Source of the DNA: an uncultured Roseivirga sp.
Lineage (GTDB): Bacteria > Bacteroidota > Bacteroidia > Cytophagales > Cyclobacteriaceae
Assembly: GCA_947493005.1 (NCBI GenBank)
Contig: CANLOY010000003.1
Location: 620,001 to 684,000 of the forward strand
Length of the DNA stretch: 64,000 nucleotides
Direction: 5' to 3'
Below the pieces are notes generated by a model. It had not been told where the DNA came from, did no database searches, and was given only the letters and a program-made list of their open reading frames with translations. Shown here in pieces: positions 45,425 through 49,274 of this stretch (position 1 is its first letter; every line of letters starts with the position of its first letter). The position numbers were made by a program, and so were the translations under genes.

Positions 45425-46159
45425 TTGAAATCCGTTCTTTCTTCAATTCTACTTTTAGTAATAACTTTTGGTTGTCAGACAAATGAAAAGAAGTTGCCAT
45501 ACCAAACTGAACAGCTCAAAGTCCAACAGCTCACTGAAAATACCTTTCTACATATTTCTTATCTGGAGACTGAAGATTTTGGTAAGGTGGCGAGCAACGG
45601 CATGGTTGTAGTCAATAATGGTGAGGCAGTGATATTTGATACTCCTGCCGATGATAAAGCATCAGAAGAACTTATTGAATGGGTTGAGGATAAATTGAAA
45701 GCTACGGTAAAAGCTGTAATTGTAACCCACTTTCATACAGACTGCCTTGGTGGATTAAAGGCATTTCATGAACATAATATTCCTTCCTATGCCAATAACA
45801 AAACTATTGATTTGGCGAAGTTGGATAATAAGATTCCACCTCAAAACGGCATGAATGATTACTTTGAAATTGAAGTTGGTTCAAAAAAGATAATCAACAG
45901 GCATTTTGGTGAAGGCCATACCAAAGACAATATCGTTAGCTACTTTCCTGACGAAGAAGTACTATTTGGTGGGTGCCTAATAAAAGGAGAAAAAGCTGGA
46001 AAAGGTTACCTTGGTGATGCTAATATCGAAGAGTGGTCAAACACTGTTCAACTAATTAAAGGGGCCTACCCCAATCTTAAAATTGTGATTCCAGGTCATG
46101 GAAAGCCCGAAGGTCAGAACTTATTGGATTACACCATTGAGATGTTTAGAAAAGACTAA
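45425..46159 (+). CDS. Subclass B1 metallo-beta-lactamase, lipoprotein
   Basis: Zinc beta-lactamase of 244 residues (TTG start). The signal ends in a lipobox-like TFGC with Cys17, so the enzyme is probably membrane-anchored in the periplasm, as in NDM-1. All B1 ligands are present: H102-F-H104-T-D106 (THFHTDCLGG), H165 (GEGHTKDN), C184 with K187 (FGGCLIK) and H225 (IPGHGKP). The order LFGGC-IK...GDANIE-W and the VTHFH-D--GG block closely resemble IMP-type enzymes. The asparagine of the IMP GNLGDAN loop is replaced by Tyr (GYLGDAN). There is no mobile element nearby, so it is an intrinsic chromosomal gene. Carbapenem hydrolysis is inferred from subclass only. Confidence 0.9.
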   Translation: MKSVLSSILLLVITFGCQTNEKKLPYQTEQLKVQQLTENTFLHISYLETEDFGKVASNGMVVVNNGEAVIFDTPADDKASEELIEWVEDKLKATVKAVIVTHFHTDCLGGLKAFHEHNIPSYANNKTIDLAKLDNKIPPQNGMNDYFEIEVGSKKIINRHFGEGHTKDNIVSYFPDEEVLFGGCLIKGEKAGKGYLGDANIEEWSNTVQLIKGAYPNLKIVIPGHGKPEGQNLLDYTIEMFRKD

Positions 46160-46199: not shown

Positions 46200-46883
46200 T
46201 TAAATCTCAAAGTGCATTCCCTCCTTTAGCAGTCTGTTATAAGTTTTCTTGTTAAACTGAAATAAGTTACCTGGCCTGCCAGCTCCGGTAGATTTTGCCT
46301 TTTCATCCAGTTCATCCAGAATCCCCAAACTCATCACCTTTTTTTTAAAGTTTCTGCGGTCAATGGGCCGGTCTAACAAAGTAGCATAAAGCTGCTCTAA
46401 ATCGGAGAATGGAAATTTCTTCTCAAGTAATTCAAAGCCGATAGGTTGATAGATGATTTTACCCCTTAGTCGCTCTATAGCCACTTTAAGAATTTCCTTA
46501 TGATCAAAAGCCAATTGAGGTAGCTCTTTGAAATTGAACCAGGCTGCATCCGCTGCATCAGTGCTAGCCTTGAGTTTTTCAAACTGACTGGATTTTACTA
46601 AACCAAAATAAGCTACTGATAATATTCTTGTACGTGGGTCTCTGTCTGGTTTACCAAATGTATAAAGCTGCTCTAAATAATTGATCCTCACTCCTGTTTC
46701 TTCTTGTAACTCTCTCTCTACAGCATCCTCCAGTGACTCATTGTTCAGGACAAAACCGCCTGGTATTGCCCAACGTCCTTGATAAGGGTCGTACTTCCTT
46801 TTGATCAATAGAATTGAAACCCCCTCCTCTTTGCTGTAACCAAAAACAACAGCATCTACAGCGACTTGAATATTTTGCGTCAT
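46200..46883 (-). CDS. Nudix-domain transcriptional regulator (NrtR/AraR-like) with intact Nudix box
   Basis: Protein of 227 residues from ATG 46883 (MTQNIQVAVDAVVFGY); the longer frame upstream is not conserved-looking. The N-terminal Nudix domain has a complete box GX5EX7REUXEEXGU at 43-65 (G-F-V...RELQEETGV). The C-terminus (about 145-227) is the winged-helix DNA-binding domain of the NrtR family: LDRPIDRRNFKKKVMSLGIL, GRPGNLFQFNKKTYNRL. Related regulators control NAD or pentose genes, and many have a degenerate Nudix box. Here the box is intact, so catalysis is possible. A palindromic operator covers its own start codon, implying autoregulation. A divergent three-gene operon is the likely target. 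Confidence 0.85.
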   Translation of the reverse strand: MTQNIQVAVDAVVFGYSKEEGVSILLIKRKYDPYQGRWAIPGGFVLNNESLEDAVERELQEETGVRINYLEQLYTFGKPDRDPRTRILSVAYFGLVKSSQFEKLKASTDAADAAWFNFKELPQLAFDHKEILKVAIERLRGKIIYQPIGFELLEKKFPFSDLEQLYATLLDRPIDRRNFKKKVMSLGILDELDEKAKSTGAGRPGNLFQFNKKTYNRLLKEGMHFEI

Positions 46884-46893
46884 TTCCACGCAA
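46875..46893. promoter_or_regulatory. Operator copy 1, over the Nudix regulator start codon
   Basis: TTGCGT-N7-ACGCAA (19 bp, perfect 6-bp arms). The start codon (46881-46883) lies in the spacer. Same arms and spacing as the copy at 46986-47010, whose centre is 114 bp away. Confidence 0.65.
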
Positions 46894-46985
46894 TAAAAGT
46901 AAGACTTTCTAAATAGAACTTGCAAGCAGCATATCAAAAACCATCGATAGGAAGATATAAACAGGTTTTTGAGATTGATTATTAT

Positions 46986-47010
46986 ATTTTGCGTCAAAAA
47001 CACGCAAAAT
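46986..47010. promoter_or_regulatory. Operator copy 2, abutting the divergent promoter
   Basis: ATTTTGCGT-N7-ACGCAAAAT, a perfect 9-bp inverted repeat with a 7-base spacer. It ends 3 bp before the -33 TTG of the plus-strand promoter. Confidence 0.7.
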
Positions 47011-47013
47011 AAC

Positions 47014-47044
47014 TTGCCTTAATCTTTATGTTAAAATATATTTG
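47014..47044 (+). promoter_or_regulatory. Bacteroidota-type promoter of the quinone-oxidoreductase operon
   Basis: -33 TTG (47014-47016) and -7 TATATTTG (47037-47044), with 20 bases between, match the Bacteroidota housekeeping sigma consensus TTG / TAnnTTTG. Transcription would start near 47050, about 60 bp before the ATG at 47111. Confidence 0.55.
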
Positions 47045-47110
47045 TATTTCAGCTACACAAATAACACTCTTCAAAGCGTAGTATTTGTTAACGGTCAAAA
47101 CTCAAAGTCT

Positions 47111-47329
47111 ATGAATTTACTCATATTCAGAACTAATATTGGGACTCAAAAAATGGTCAAATCGCTTGAGTCGCTTTTTCGAAACATTCCTACCATACTT
47201 GGGTGGTCAGTGGATTTAGAAGATATTGATAATGTATTGCGTATTGAAGCTACCGGGGAATTAGAAGAAACCGACATTATCAACCACTTGAAAATCTCCG
47301 GGTTTCAGTGTGAAACTTTAGAAGATTGA
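47111..47329 (+). CDS. Small ferredoxin-fold-like protein of unknown function
   Basis: Small protein of 72 residues from ATG 47111 (MNLLIFRTNIGTQK); the longer frame from 47042 would begin inside the promoter. The beta-alpha-beta-beta-alpha-beta pattern (LIFRTNI, helix SLESLFRNI, strands WSVDLED and VLRIEATG, helix TDIINHLKISG) resembles heavy-metal-associated/copper-chaperone folds, but there is no CxxC metal motif. It is therefore not a metal chaperone of the usual kind. It is first in the Nudix-regulated operon and ends five bases before the next start. Function unknown. Confidence 0.65.
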   Translation: MNLLIFRTNIGTQKMVKSLESLFRNIPTILGWSVDLEDIDNVLRIEATGELEETDIINHLKISGFQCETLED

Positions 47330-47334
47330 AGCAG

Positions 47335-48309
47335 ATGAAAGCAATCGTTTGGACAAAATACGGCTCTCCTGACCTACTTCAGCTTGGACAAATAGAAAAA
47401 CCCGTACCCAAAGATGATGAGGTATTAGTTAAAGTGTATGCTGCCACGGTTACTCCTGGGGATTGTGAAATGCGCAGGTTCGACATGCACATACTCTTCT
47501 GGTTACCTCTCAGGTTATATATGGGTATTTTCAAACCAAAACGCCCTGTTCTGGGAATGGAAATGGCTGGTGAGATTGAAGCTGTTGGCAAAGATGTGGG
47601 CAACTTCAAAAGAGGTGACAAAATCATGGCGGGCACTGGACTTAAATTTGGCAGTTATGCAGAATACAACTGTATAAAGGCATCTGCCTTTATTGCTCAG
47701 AAACCTGACAACATGAGTTTCAATGAAGCCGCTACCCTTCCGACCGGAGCCAATAATGCATTGCATTATGTAAGAAAGTGCAACATCAAAGCAGGCCAGA
47801 ATGTATTGATTGTTGGTGCTGCGGGCTGTTTTGGCACATACGCAGTACAGTTTGCCAAACTACTTGGTGCAAAAGTAACGGCCGTAGACAGCACGCATAA
47901 ACTGGATACGCTACTGTCAATTGGTGCGGATGCCGTAATCGATTATACAAAGGAAGACTTCACAAAAAATGGCCAATTGTATGATGCTATACTTGATATA
48001 GCAGGAAAAAACTCAGTTTCAAGAAACATGAATGCTCTAAAGAAAGGAGGACAATATGTTTTAGCCACGCCTTGGGTAAAACAGGTAATTCAAGGTATTT
48101 GGACTGCAAAAATCAATAAGAAGAAATTCAACTTTTCCCTGGCAAAAGAAGGCCCTAAAGAACTAATCTACATAAAAAACCTTGTAGAAAAGGGCAATCT
48201 TAAGGCTGTGATTGATCGTACGTATTCGCTTGACCAAATGGCAGCAGCACATCATTTTGTAGAGAAGGGTGAAAAAATTGGTCATGTTTCAATTGCATTA
48301 ACAAAATGA
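47335..48309 (+). CDS. NAD(P)-dependent zinc-free quinone-oxidoreductase-like enzyme (MDR family), copy 1
   Basis: Medium-chain dehydrogenase/reductase of 324 residues; ATG 47335 gives MKAIVWTKYGSPD (a TTG at 47326 is in frame). The N-terminal GroES-like domain (about 1-125) lacks the catalytic zinc cysteines of alcohol dehydrogenases. The Rossmann motif is VLIVGAAGCFGTYAVQFAK (about 155-173), with C in place of the usual second G-V. This is the quinone oxidoreductase/RTN4IP1-like branch. Tandem paralogue of the next gene and coupled to it by an ATGA overlap. It probably reduces quinones or enones, and is presumably controlled by the Nudix regulator. Confidence 0.82.
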   Translation: MKAIVWTKYGSPDLLQLGQIEKPVPKDDEVLVKVYAATVTPGDCEMRRFDMHILFWLPLRLYMGIFKPKRPVLGMEMAGEIEAVGKDVGNFKRGDKIMAGTGLKFGSYAEYNCIKASAFIAQKPDNMSFNEAATLPTGANNALHYVRKCNIKAGQNVLIVGAAGCFGTYAVQFAKLLGAKVTAVDSTHKLDTLLSIGADAVIDYTKEDFTKNGQLYDAILDIAGKNSVSRNMNALKKGGQYVLATPWVKQVIQGIWTAKINKKKFNFSLAKEGPKELIYIKNLVEKGNLKAVIDRTYSLDQMAAAHHFVEKGEKIGHVSIALTK

Positions 48310-49274
48310 AAGCCATTGTACAGACTAAATACGGGTCGCCCGAAACACTACACTTTAAAGAGGTAGAAAAGCCCAAACCAGGAAAAAACGAAGTATTGGT
48401 AAAAATTCATGCCACTGCCATCAATGACTATGACTGGAGTATGGTTCGGGGCAAACCAAACATGTACAGATTACTCTTTGGTTTGGTTAAACCCAAATAC
48501 CCCACTCCAGGAATGGAACTTGCTGGTAAAATAGAAGCATTGGGACCAGATGTAACTTCATTTAATGTTGGAGATGAAGTATATGGAGACATCTCTGATT
48601 ATGGATTCGGCACCTTTGCTGAGTATATCAGTATTAACGAGAAAGCTTTGGTTGCTAAACCAGCTTCTATGACCTTTCAAGAAGCAACCTCTATTCCACA
48701 TGCCGCAATGCTTGCTTCACAGAGTCTGATAGATTTTGGAAAGATTGAAGTTGGCCAAAGAATTCTGATCAATGGTGCTGGAGGCGGTGTCGGAACATTA
48801 GGGCTTCAAATAGCTAAAGTATTCGATGCGCATGTAACTGGAGTAGACACCGGAGATAAACTGGAAATGATGAAAGCATTAGGTTTTGATAAGGTAATTG
48901 ACTTCAAAGAGCAGGATTTTACTCAATGTGGGAAGTTATATGACATTGTACTGGATGCAAAATCTAATCGGCCAGTATCTCACTATCTTCGATGCCTCTC
49001 CCCTAATGGCAAGTATTTAACTGTTGGAGGCCAATTGATCAGACTTCTACAAATAACACTGTCAGCCACTTTTATTTCAGCATTCTCCAAGAAAAGCGTA
49101 AAGGTAATATCCTTAAAAGCCAATAAAGATCTGGACTTTATTAACAGGCTTTTTGAAGAAGGTAAGATCAAACCTGTGATTGATGGCCCTTACCAAATGG
49201 AAGAAATACCCAGATTGATCAACTACTTTGGAATGGGCAAACACAAGGGGAAAGTTGCTGTTTCAATTCAATAA
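48306..49274 (+). CDS. NAD(P)-dependent zinc-free quinone-oxidoreductase-like enzyme (MDR family), copy 2
   Basis: Second MDR enzyme, 322 residues, starting in the ATGA overlap with copy 1. The N-terminal domain opens MKAIVQTKYGSPETLHF and contains PGMELAGKIEALG and GDEVYGDISDYGFGTFAEY. The nucleotide-binding loop ILINGAGGGVGTLGLQIAK is canonical. No structural or catalytic zinc cysteines are evident. The two copies are clearly related but well diverged, so the duplication is old or they were acquired together. A perfect hairpin terminator lies about 215 bp downstream. Confidence 0.84.
   Translation: MKAIVQTKYGSPETLHFKEVEKPKPGKNEVLVKIHATAINDYDWSMVRGKPNMYRLLFGLVKPKYPTPGMELAGKIEALGPDVTSFNVGDEVYGDISDYGFGTFAEYISINEKALVAKPASMTFQEATSIPHAAMLASQSLIDFGKIEVGQRILINGAGGGVGTLGLQIAKVFDAHVTGVDTGDKLEMMKALGFDKVIDFKEQDFTQCGKLYDIVLDAKSNRPVSHYLRCLSPNGKYLTVGGQLIRLLQITLSATFISAFSKKSVKVISLKANKDLDFINRLFEEGKIKPVIDGPYQMEEIPRLINYFGMGKHKGKVAVSIQ

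Follow-up and report, generated by a model that had tools for sequence, protein, structure and literature searches.

Genes and operators at the locus

The locus described here lies in a 64,000-nucleotide (nt) stretch of an uncultured Roseivirga sp. genome (contig CANLOY010000003.1); this whole stretch is called the window, and coordinates are positions in it. A gene on the minus strand (46200 to 46883) encodes a regulator of 227 amino acids (aa) that combines a Nudix domain with an NrtR-type winged helix, as identified by comparison with Pfam, NCBIfam, and the Protein Data Bank (PDB). Divergent from it, three plus-strand genes encode a 72-aa protein (47111 to 47329) and two medium-chain dehydrogenase/reductase (MDR) oxidoreductases, one quinone/enone-reductase-like (MDR1; 47335 to 48309) and one alkenal/enone- and quinone-reductase-like (MDR2; 48306 to 49274), whose genes share an ATGA overlap. 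An initial annotation, made from the sequence alone, had described this arrangement, and all of its coordinates hold. MDR domains were clear in both oxidoreductases by Pfam, and their PDB matches were quinone, alkenal/enone, and alcohol reductases or dehydrogenases; their scores against the PIG3-type quinone oxidoreductase model TIGR02824 (155.1 and 153.1 bits) fell below its curated cutoff of 296.8. No Pfam or NCBIfam family was assigned to the 72-aa protein, and a PDB sequence search gave no match. Its structure was predicted as an HMA-like β-α-β-β-α-β fold without CxxC (predicted local distance difference test score of 87, at an alignment depth of five rows), and the structure matches of the model were copper-chaperone folds (best E value, 4e-4).

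Three operator sequences were located around the gap between the divergent genes and numbered from 1 (nearest the regulator start) to 3 (nearest the divergent genes). Operator 1 (46875 to 46893), which spans the regulator start codon, and operator 2 (46989 to 47007), the distal member of the target pair, are exact matches to TTGCGT-N7-ACGCAA, and operator 2 widens to a perfect 9+7+9 palindrome at 46986 to 47010. The initial annotation had recognized both palindromes, including the widened one, but had overlooked operator 3 (TTGTATTTCAGCTACACAA; 47042 to 47060), which lies within the divergent promoter, 53 bp from operator 2. The distance between operators 1 and 2 is 114 bp. The TTG-20-TATATTTG promoter proposed for the divergent genes was also found: a putative −33 element, TTG (47014 to 47016, plus strand), stands 20 bp before the −7 box TATATTTG (47037 to 47044, plus strand), which follows the Bacteroidota consensus TAnnTTTG and whose final TTG makes up the first three bases of operator 3. 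Since the sigma-A −7 box of Flavobacterium psychrophilum is reported as TAnnTTTG at positions −12 to −5 (PMC9723704), we infer a divergent start site near 47049. Relative to this start, operator 3 would cover about −7 to +12 and operator 2 would cover −60 to −42, its core ending 6 bp ahead of the −33 TTG.

Throughout the 4.88-Mb genome, exact TTGCGT-N7-ACGCAA occurred only at operators 1 and 2, with no hit for the reversed control. Loosening the variable position to C/T and G/A still yielded operators 1 and 2 alone, but the control now gave two hits. With one mismatch allowed, 29 sites were found, compared to 29 control hits. Operator 3, which matches TTGYGT-N7-ACRCAA at 11 of 12 positions, is therefore noise in this genome when taken by itself; its assignment is based on its distance from operator 2 and its recurrence in close loci. 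For the same reason, no second target can be claimed in the window genome, and further targets elsewhere in it were dropped.

Conservation of the operators and mode of control

A search for orthologous loci found 178 stretches encoding a relative of the regulator, and the best 80 (proteins 65 to 89% identical to that of the window) were used for counts; counts out of 81 include the window. The motif adjoined the regulator in 78 of the 80 loci, so that the conservation near orthologs for which the initial annotation had called in advance was borne out. In total, 197 sites were detected, compared to 5 for the reversed motif. A pair of operators spaced 51 to 56 or 25 to 28 bp apart was present in 70 loci; neighboring sites were separated by 53 to 54 bp in 49 cases and by 25 to 28 bp in 19 cases, the window's value being 53. 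At loci with the target downstream of the regulator and in the same orientation, the pair sits before the downstream gene. The site nearer the target bore TAnnTTTG pointing to the target in 67 of 71 pairs, compared to 9.5% of all TTTG in the loci. In the window and its 13 closest loci, 37 sites were counted against 0.07 expected (60 dinucleotide shuffles each). Three sites matching at least 11 of 12 positions lay within −280 to +12 of the regulator start in 11 of these 14 loci, the remaining three having two sites (L003) or one (L012 and L013). Operators 2 and 3 were 51 to 54 bp apart in all 12 loci that have both, window included, and operator 1 occupied the same place (−10), with at least 11 of 12 positions matching, in 11 of the 13 closest loci.

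Operator 3 lies over the −7 box and the inferred start, and nearly all of the pairs mentioned above share this fusion of proximal site and −7 box. This is the layout of a repressor, and the divergent operon would be repressed from it. Autorepression through operator 1 is likely, because this operator contains the regulator start codon and keeps its −10 position among the closest loci. Operator placement and recurrence in orthologous loci thus support the autoregulation and control of the divergent operon that had been suggested from the sequence. An activating role, in which a dimer on operator 2 beside the −33 element recruits RNA polymerase to the divergent promoter, had been favored in the initial annotation and would suit the 6-bp gap between operator 2 and the −33 TTG. 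However, operator 3 over the −7 box and the same overlap in 67 of the 71 orthologous pairs speak against it; in addition, auto-repression is described for MsNrtR, and release from DNA by the respective ligand for MsNrtR, SsNrtR, and AraR. We consider activation quite improbable. The annotation had also paired operators 1 and 2 in a possible loop. Looping between them may still occur, but the conserved pair is that of operators 2 and 3.

The shorter spacing of 25 to 28 bp was seen in L017, L021, L022, L041, and other Fulvivirga, Mucilaginibacter, and Saprospiraceae loci, mostly before a NadM-like gene. A second within-cluster operator pair was observed near a NAMPT-type gene in L005 (about −3593/−3539 from the regulator start) and L007 (about −4627/−4574).

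Target genes at orthologous loci

Neighboring genes were counted by marker searches, with examples checked by Pfam. An NAD-salvage or ADP-ribose gene was present in the flanks of 63 of the 80 loci, after removal of "NadM" matches inside the regulator itself (Nudix cross-hits), which lowered the number of NadM-like loci from 28 to 20 and that of NAD/ADP-ribose loci from 66 to 63. A NAMPT-type gene was found in 52 loci (tblastn, 1e-6), some matches having just 30 to 34% identity. The label NadM-like is based on a Nudix C terminus, a weak PDB match to the Nudix part of a nicotinamide mononucleotide adenylyltransferase, and an HxGH-like N terminus recognized by eye; NCBIfam gave no match for this protein. 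Nine of the 13 closest loci had NAD/ADP-ribose genes in their flanks, and the other four had MDRs. L012 is counted among the nine for an ADP-ribosylglycohydrolase gene alone, which lies upstream in the regulator's own direction.

MDR genes occupied the divergent side in five loci, i.e., the window, L003, L004, L006, and L008. The order of the window (72-aa gene, MDR1, MDR2) is kept in L004, at 61, 67, and 56% identity, respectively. Both MDR genes are divergent in L008, with the 72-aa homolog farther away; in L003, a large CarboxypepD_reg-domain gene precedes the 72-aa gene and an MDR2-like gene, and L006 combines MDR1 with a nucleotidyl cyclase gene. Judged by gene content, the target operon of an NAD-type repressor has been replaced by MDR reductases in the window and these four close relatives, in three cases together with a small HMA-like protein. 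The motif search that the initial annotation had proposed for regulator orthologs and MDR genes alike succeeded at the former but not at MDR genes without an adjoining regulator, where none of the eight loci with upstream DNA (L165 to L167, L169, and L171 to L173, L175; only 376 bp for L167) had an operator. L168 was excluded from this control, its stretch ending at the start of the first MDR gene and its one 11/12 site lying inside coding DNA. Two of the genomes harboring such MDR loci (G033 and G034) carry the regulator elsewhere. Because no regulator-free MDR locus among the eight has an operator, the operators appear to travel with the regulator, and the reductase module appears to have been brought under its control.

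If the operators were purely autoregulatory, the MDR genes could be chance neighbors under their own control. Neighborhoods with the 72-aa and MDR genes but without an adjoining regulator (L165, L171, L172, L173, and L175) fit this explanation, and because the module occurs in this form, it is independent in origin. However, operators 2 and 3 lie on the MDR-side promoter at the canonical pair spacing, and the MDR genes are divergent in all five loci named above, which makes chance neighborhood improbable.

In a tree with long branches and unsettled bootstrap values, the regulators of the window, L003, L004, and L006 formed a clade (99/91), and that of L008 was placed elsewhere. When all five MDR-locus regulators were forced to group, the best tree outscored the free one by 2.9 log units and was not rejected (approximately unbiased test, P = 0.56); since one rewiring explains the tree no worse, two separate rewirings were discarded. 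Loss of NAMPT as the cause of the rewiring was discarded as well. PF04095 was absent from G011, G023, and G045, with one match above the cutoff in G029 (36.8 bits); 16 of 18 congeneric genomes, like that of the window, had no PF04095 gene, so no association is seen.

Other neighborhoods were observed behind the same operators. A class III nucleotidyl cyclase gene (PF00211) comes first behind the operator pair in L006 (4168 to 4797, followed by an MDR gene) and in L164 (4954 to 5640, followed by a 72-aa homolog), and these loci would represent a second non-NAD target module; G045 has operators, a cyclase gene, and a 72-aa homolog, with no MDR match within the stretch fetched. A Band-7/SPFH gene is the first target downstream of the regulator in L019, L023, L031, L037, and L061, with KptA, Macro, NADAR, or ADP-ribosylglycohydrolase genes beyond it, and these are possible ADP-ribose repair or defense operons. 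L010 and L011 come from one Roseivirga assembly, probably G008, and represent two regulator copies in one genome, one by PARG and KptA genes and the other by PRPP-synthase-like and NAMPT-type genes.

Regulator family, ligand pocket, and Nudix box

The regulator scored above the Pfam cutoffs for PF00293 (80.4 versus 21.1 bits), PF21906 (73.8 versus 27 bits), and the AraR C-terminal domain PF19368 (53.1 versus 23.8 bits), the last score being lower than that for PF21906. It was the sole NrtR_WHD match in the window genome at an E value of 0.001. The best PDB matches by sequence were 5bs6 (AraR of Bacteroides; 170 bits), 2fml (MutT/nudix protein; 127 bits), and 3gz5 (110 bits), the last of which we take to be SoNrtR, as fits literature passages on that protein. 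These domain assignments agree with the NrtR/AraR-type Nudix regulator initially proposed; together with the operators, the NAD-linked orthologous loci, and the pocket arginines described below, they place the protein in the NrtR family.

In SoNrtR, Arg41 and Arg98 touch ADP-ribose, whereas in AraR the position of Arg98 is taken by Gly89, and Gly89, Leu67, and Phe36 occupy the space of the phosphate and base (PMC4666351). The window residues R29 and R84 align with SoNrtR Arg41 and Arg98, and R29, R81, R84, and H128, the counterparts of ligand-binding residues in SoNrtR or AraR, were invariant in 81 of 81 sequences. Residues at the places of AraR DNA contacts (R176, R177, N178, K181, and R203) were equally invariant. 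Four of the six AraR contacts are kept (Arg180, Asn181, Lys184, and Arg205), while Lys179 is replaced by Arg and Lys204 by Gly, each without variation among the 81 sequences. The Nudix box GX5EX7REUXEEXGU (window residues 43 to 65) was intact in 80 of 81 proteins including the window regulator, confirming the initial call; the exception was L069 (G to N). Outside this set, five farther relatives of 41 to 55% identity (L099, L106, L108, L109, and L112) lacked the strict box. In published accounts, the box is altered in AraR, MsNrtR, and SsNrtR, and NuhA, whose motif is intact, has ADP-ribose pyrophosphatase activity (PMC4666351, PMC6800001, PMC12735969); ADP-ribose is reported to free MsNrtR (at 50 mM) and SsNrtR from DNA (PMC6800001, PMC12735969).

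A sugar-responsive regulator of the AraR/XylR type would account for the PF19368 match, for BtAraR (5bs6) as the top PDB match, and for the retained equivalents of Arg34, Arg86, Phe129, and His131. However, the space-filling Gly89, Leu67, and Phe36 are here R84, E62, and Y31; R84 corresponds to the ADP-ribose-binding Arg98 of SoNrtR; NAD/ADP-ribose genes are frequent at the orthologous loci (63/80); and the Nudix box is intact, whereas that of AraR is reported not to be conserved. Given that the key arginine brings the pocket nearer to that of SoNrtR and that NAD genes are neighbors, a sugar ligand, one of the options raised at first, is unlikely, and we regard an AraR/XylR-type regulator as highly improbable. 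The same fold and operators might alternatively serve an NrtR that senses another nucleotide suiting the reductases, such as an NAD(P) derivative, damaged NADPH, cyclic ADP-ribose, or another Nudix substrate. Target replacement and the difference at two SoNrtR ADP-ribose contacts speak for such a shift, but six of the seven pocket columns compared were invariant across NAD-linked and MDR-linked orthologs, column 31 alone varying, and we think a changed ligand rather unlikely. The repressor probably responds to ADP-ribose. Because its Nudix box is intact, unlike those of the NrtRs compared, it may also destroy its own inducer, and ADP-ribose sensing with hydrolysis is our leading reading of the pocket.

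Proposed mechanism

We consider it likely that this regulator is an NrtR-family repressor, originally of NAD salvage and ADP-ribose metabolism, whose target operon has been replaced. The operators, their geometry and conservation, the pocket and DNA-contact residues, and the target replacement can be read from the DNA itself. According to the proposed mechanism, a dimer would occupy each TTGYGT-N7-ACRCAA site. The dimers on operators 2 and 3, separated by about five helical turns, would shut the divergent promoter, since the −7 box and operator 3 are fused, and a third dimer on operator 1, over the start codon, would restrain expression of the regulator itself. Upon NAD breakdown, ADP-ribose or a close relative would enter the Nudix pocket and release the DNA, turning on the HMA-like protein and the two enone/quinone-type reductases. 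The intact Nudix box may allow inducer hydrolysis, so that the repressor would reset itself. More tentatively, a self-resetting ADP-ribose sensor could have been captured, together with the whole three-operator region, by electrophile/quinone-detoxifying reductases (and by a cyclase module in L006 and G045). If so, NAD breakdown would directly induce reductive detoxification or signaling rather than NAD rebuilding.

Several points weigh against this explanation. The SoNrtR ADP-ribose contacts Asn43 and Lys76 are Y31 and E62 in the window regulator, and the regulator scored 127.3 bits against NCBIfam NF050029 (ADP-ribose-responsive repressor equivalog), short of the curated cutoff of 400, although the NAMPT-adjoining ortholog of L009 likewise reached just 137.1 bits. 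Operator 3 has one off-consensus base. The 80 loci are related by descent, so their counts are not independent trials; two of them (L016 and L018) had no operator site, and ten had no pair of the above spacings (L012, L013, L016, L018, L026, L032, L054, L055, L065, and L073). No NAD/ADP-ribose gene was found in the flanks searched of 17 loci, some on short contigs: nine had Band-7/SPFH as the sole marked neighbor, four were the MDR loci L003, L004, L006, and L008, and four had neither (L016, L018, L054, and L073). The window genome has no recognizable NAMPT/NAPRT gene (no PF04095), and the NAD logic is not visible there. Finally, dimer binding, repression, ADP-ribose as the ligand, hydrolysis, and the substrates and cofactor of the enzymes are all deduced.

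Relation to known regulators

The window regulator shares the Nudix and winged-helix build of SoNrtR (Shewanella oneidensis; PDB 3gz5, 3gz6, and 3gz8), MsNrtR, and SsNrtR. It retains both arginine contacts of SoNrtR, without Asn43 and Lys76 and at 110 bits to 3gz5, and its predicted autoregulation parallels the description of MsNrtR as an auto-repressor. It differs from these NrtRs in its intact Nudix box and in its targets, which are MDR reductases rather than NAD genes. The closest solved relative is AraR of Bacteroides thetaiotaomicron (BT0354; 5bs6; 170 bits), with four of six DNA-reading residues identical. The AraR crystal operator GTGT-N7-ACAC has the core GYGT-N7-ACRC and the spacing of the window operators, and tandem operators are described for AraR, too. 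The two proteins differ in the pocket (R84, E62, and Y31) and in the Nudix box, and no arabinose gene was present among the window neighbors examined, no genome-wide ara search having been made. AraR and XylR are NrtR-family sugar regulators in Bacteroides, and NrtR controls NAD genes in other phyla (PMC3878776). Nudix transcription factors have been proposed as ADP-ribose sensors in ADP-ribosylglycohydrolase systems (PMC9503650, section 3.8); similarly, L005, L007, L010, L011, and L012 have NADAR, KptA, Macro, PARG, or ADP-ribosylglycohydrolase neighbors. That section mentions neither operators nor MDR targets, and the window operon is devoid of those ADP-ribose genes.

Among the literature matches listed, as judged by titles, abstract starts, and passages, no paper joined an NrtR regulator to MDR reductases. 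To this extent the initial statement that no described regulon combines these parts holds, but the founding NrtR paper of 2008 lay outside the comparison. That paper (Rodionov) may already describe NAD-linked Bacteroidota NrtRs and this motif. We therefore claim as new the target replacement and the operator-pair rule as seen here, and nothing wider. The rule for this Bacteroidota NrtR branch, TTGYGT-N7-ACRCAA pairs at 53 to 54 or about 27 bp with the proximal site fused to the −7 box, is testable and predicts targets in many uncharacterized genomes. The locus is a clear example of a regulator that has exchanged NAD-salvage targets for reductases yet retained its control region, and it draws attention to NrtRs whose Nudix box is complete and which may combine detection of the signal with its destruction.

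Convergent with the regulator gene, the window also carries a subclass B1 metallo-β-lactamase gene (45425 to 46159, plus strand; NF033088, 265.7 bits, cutoff 200).

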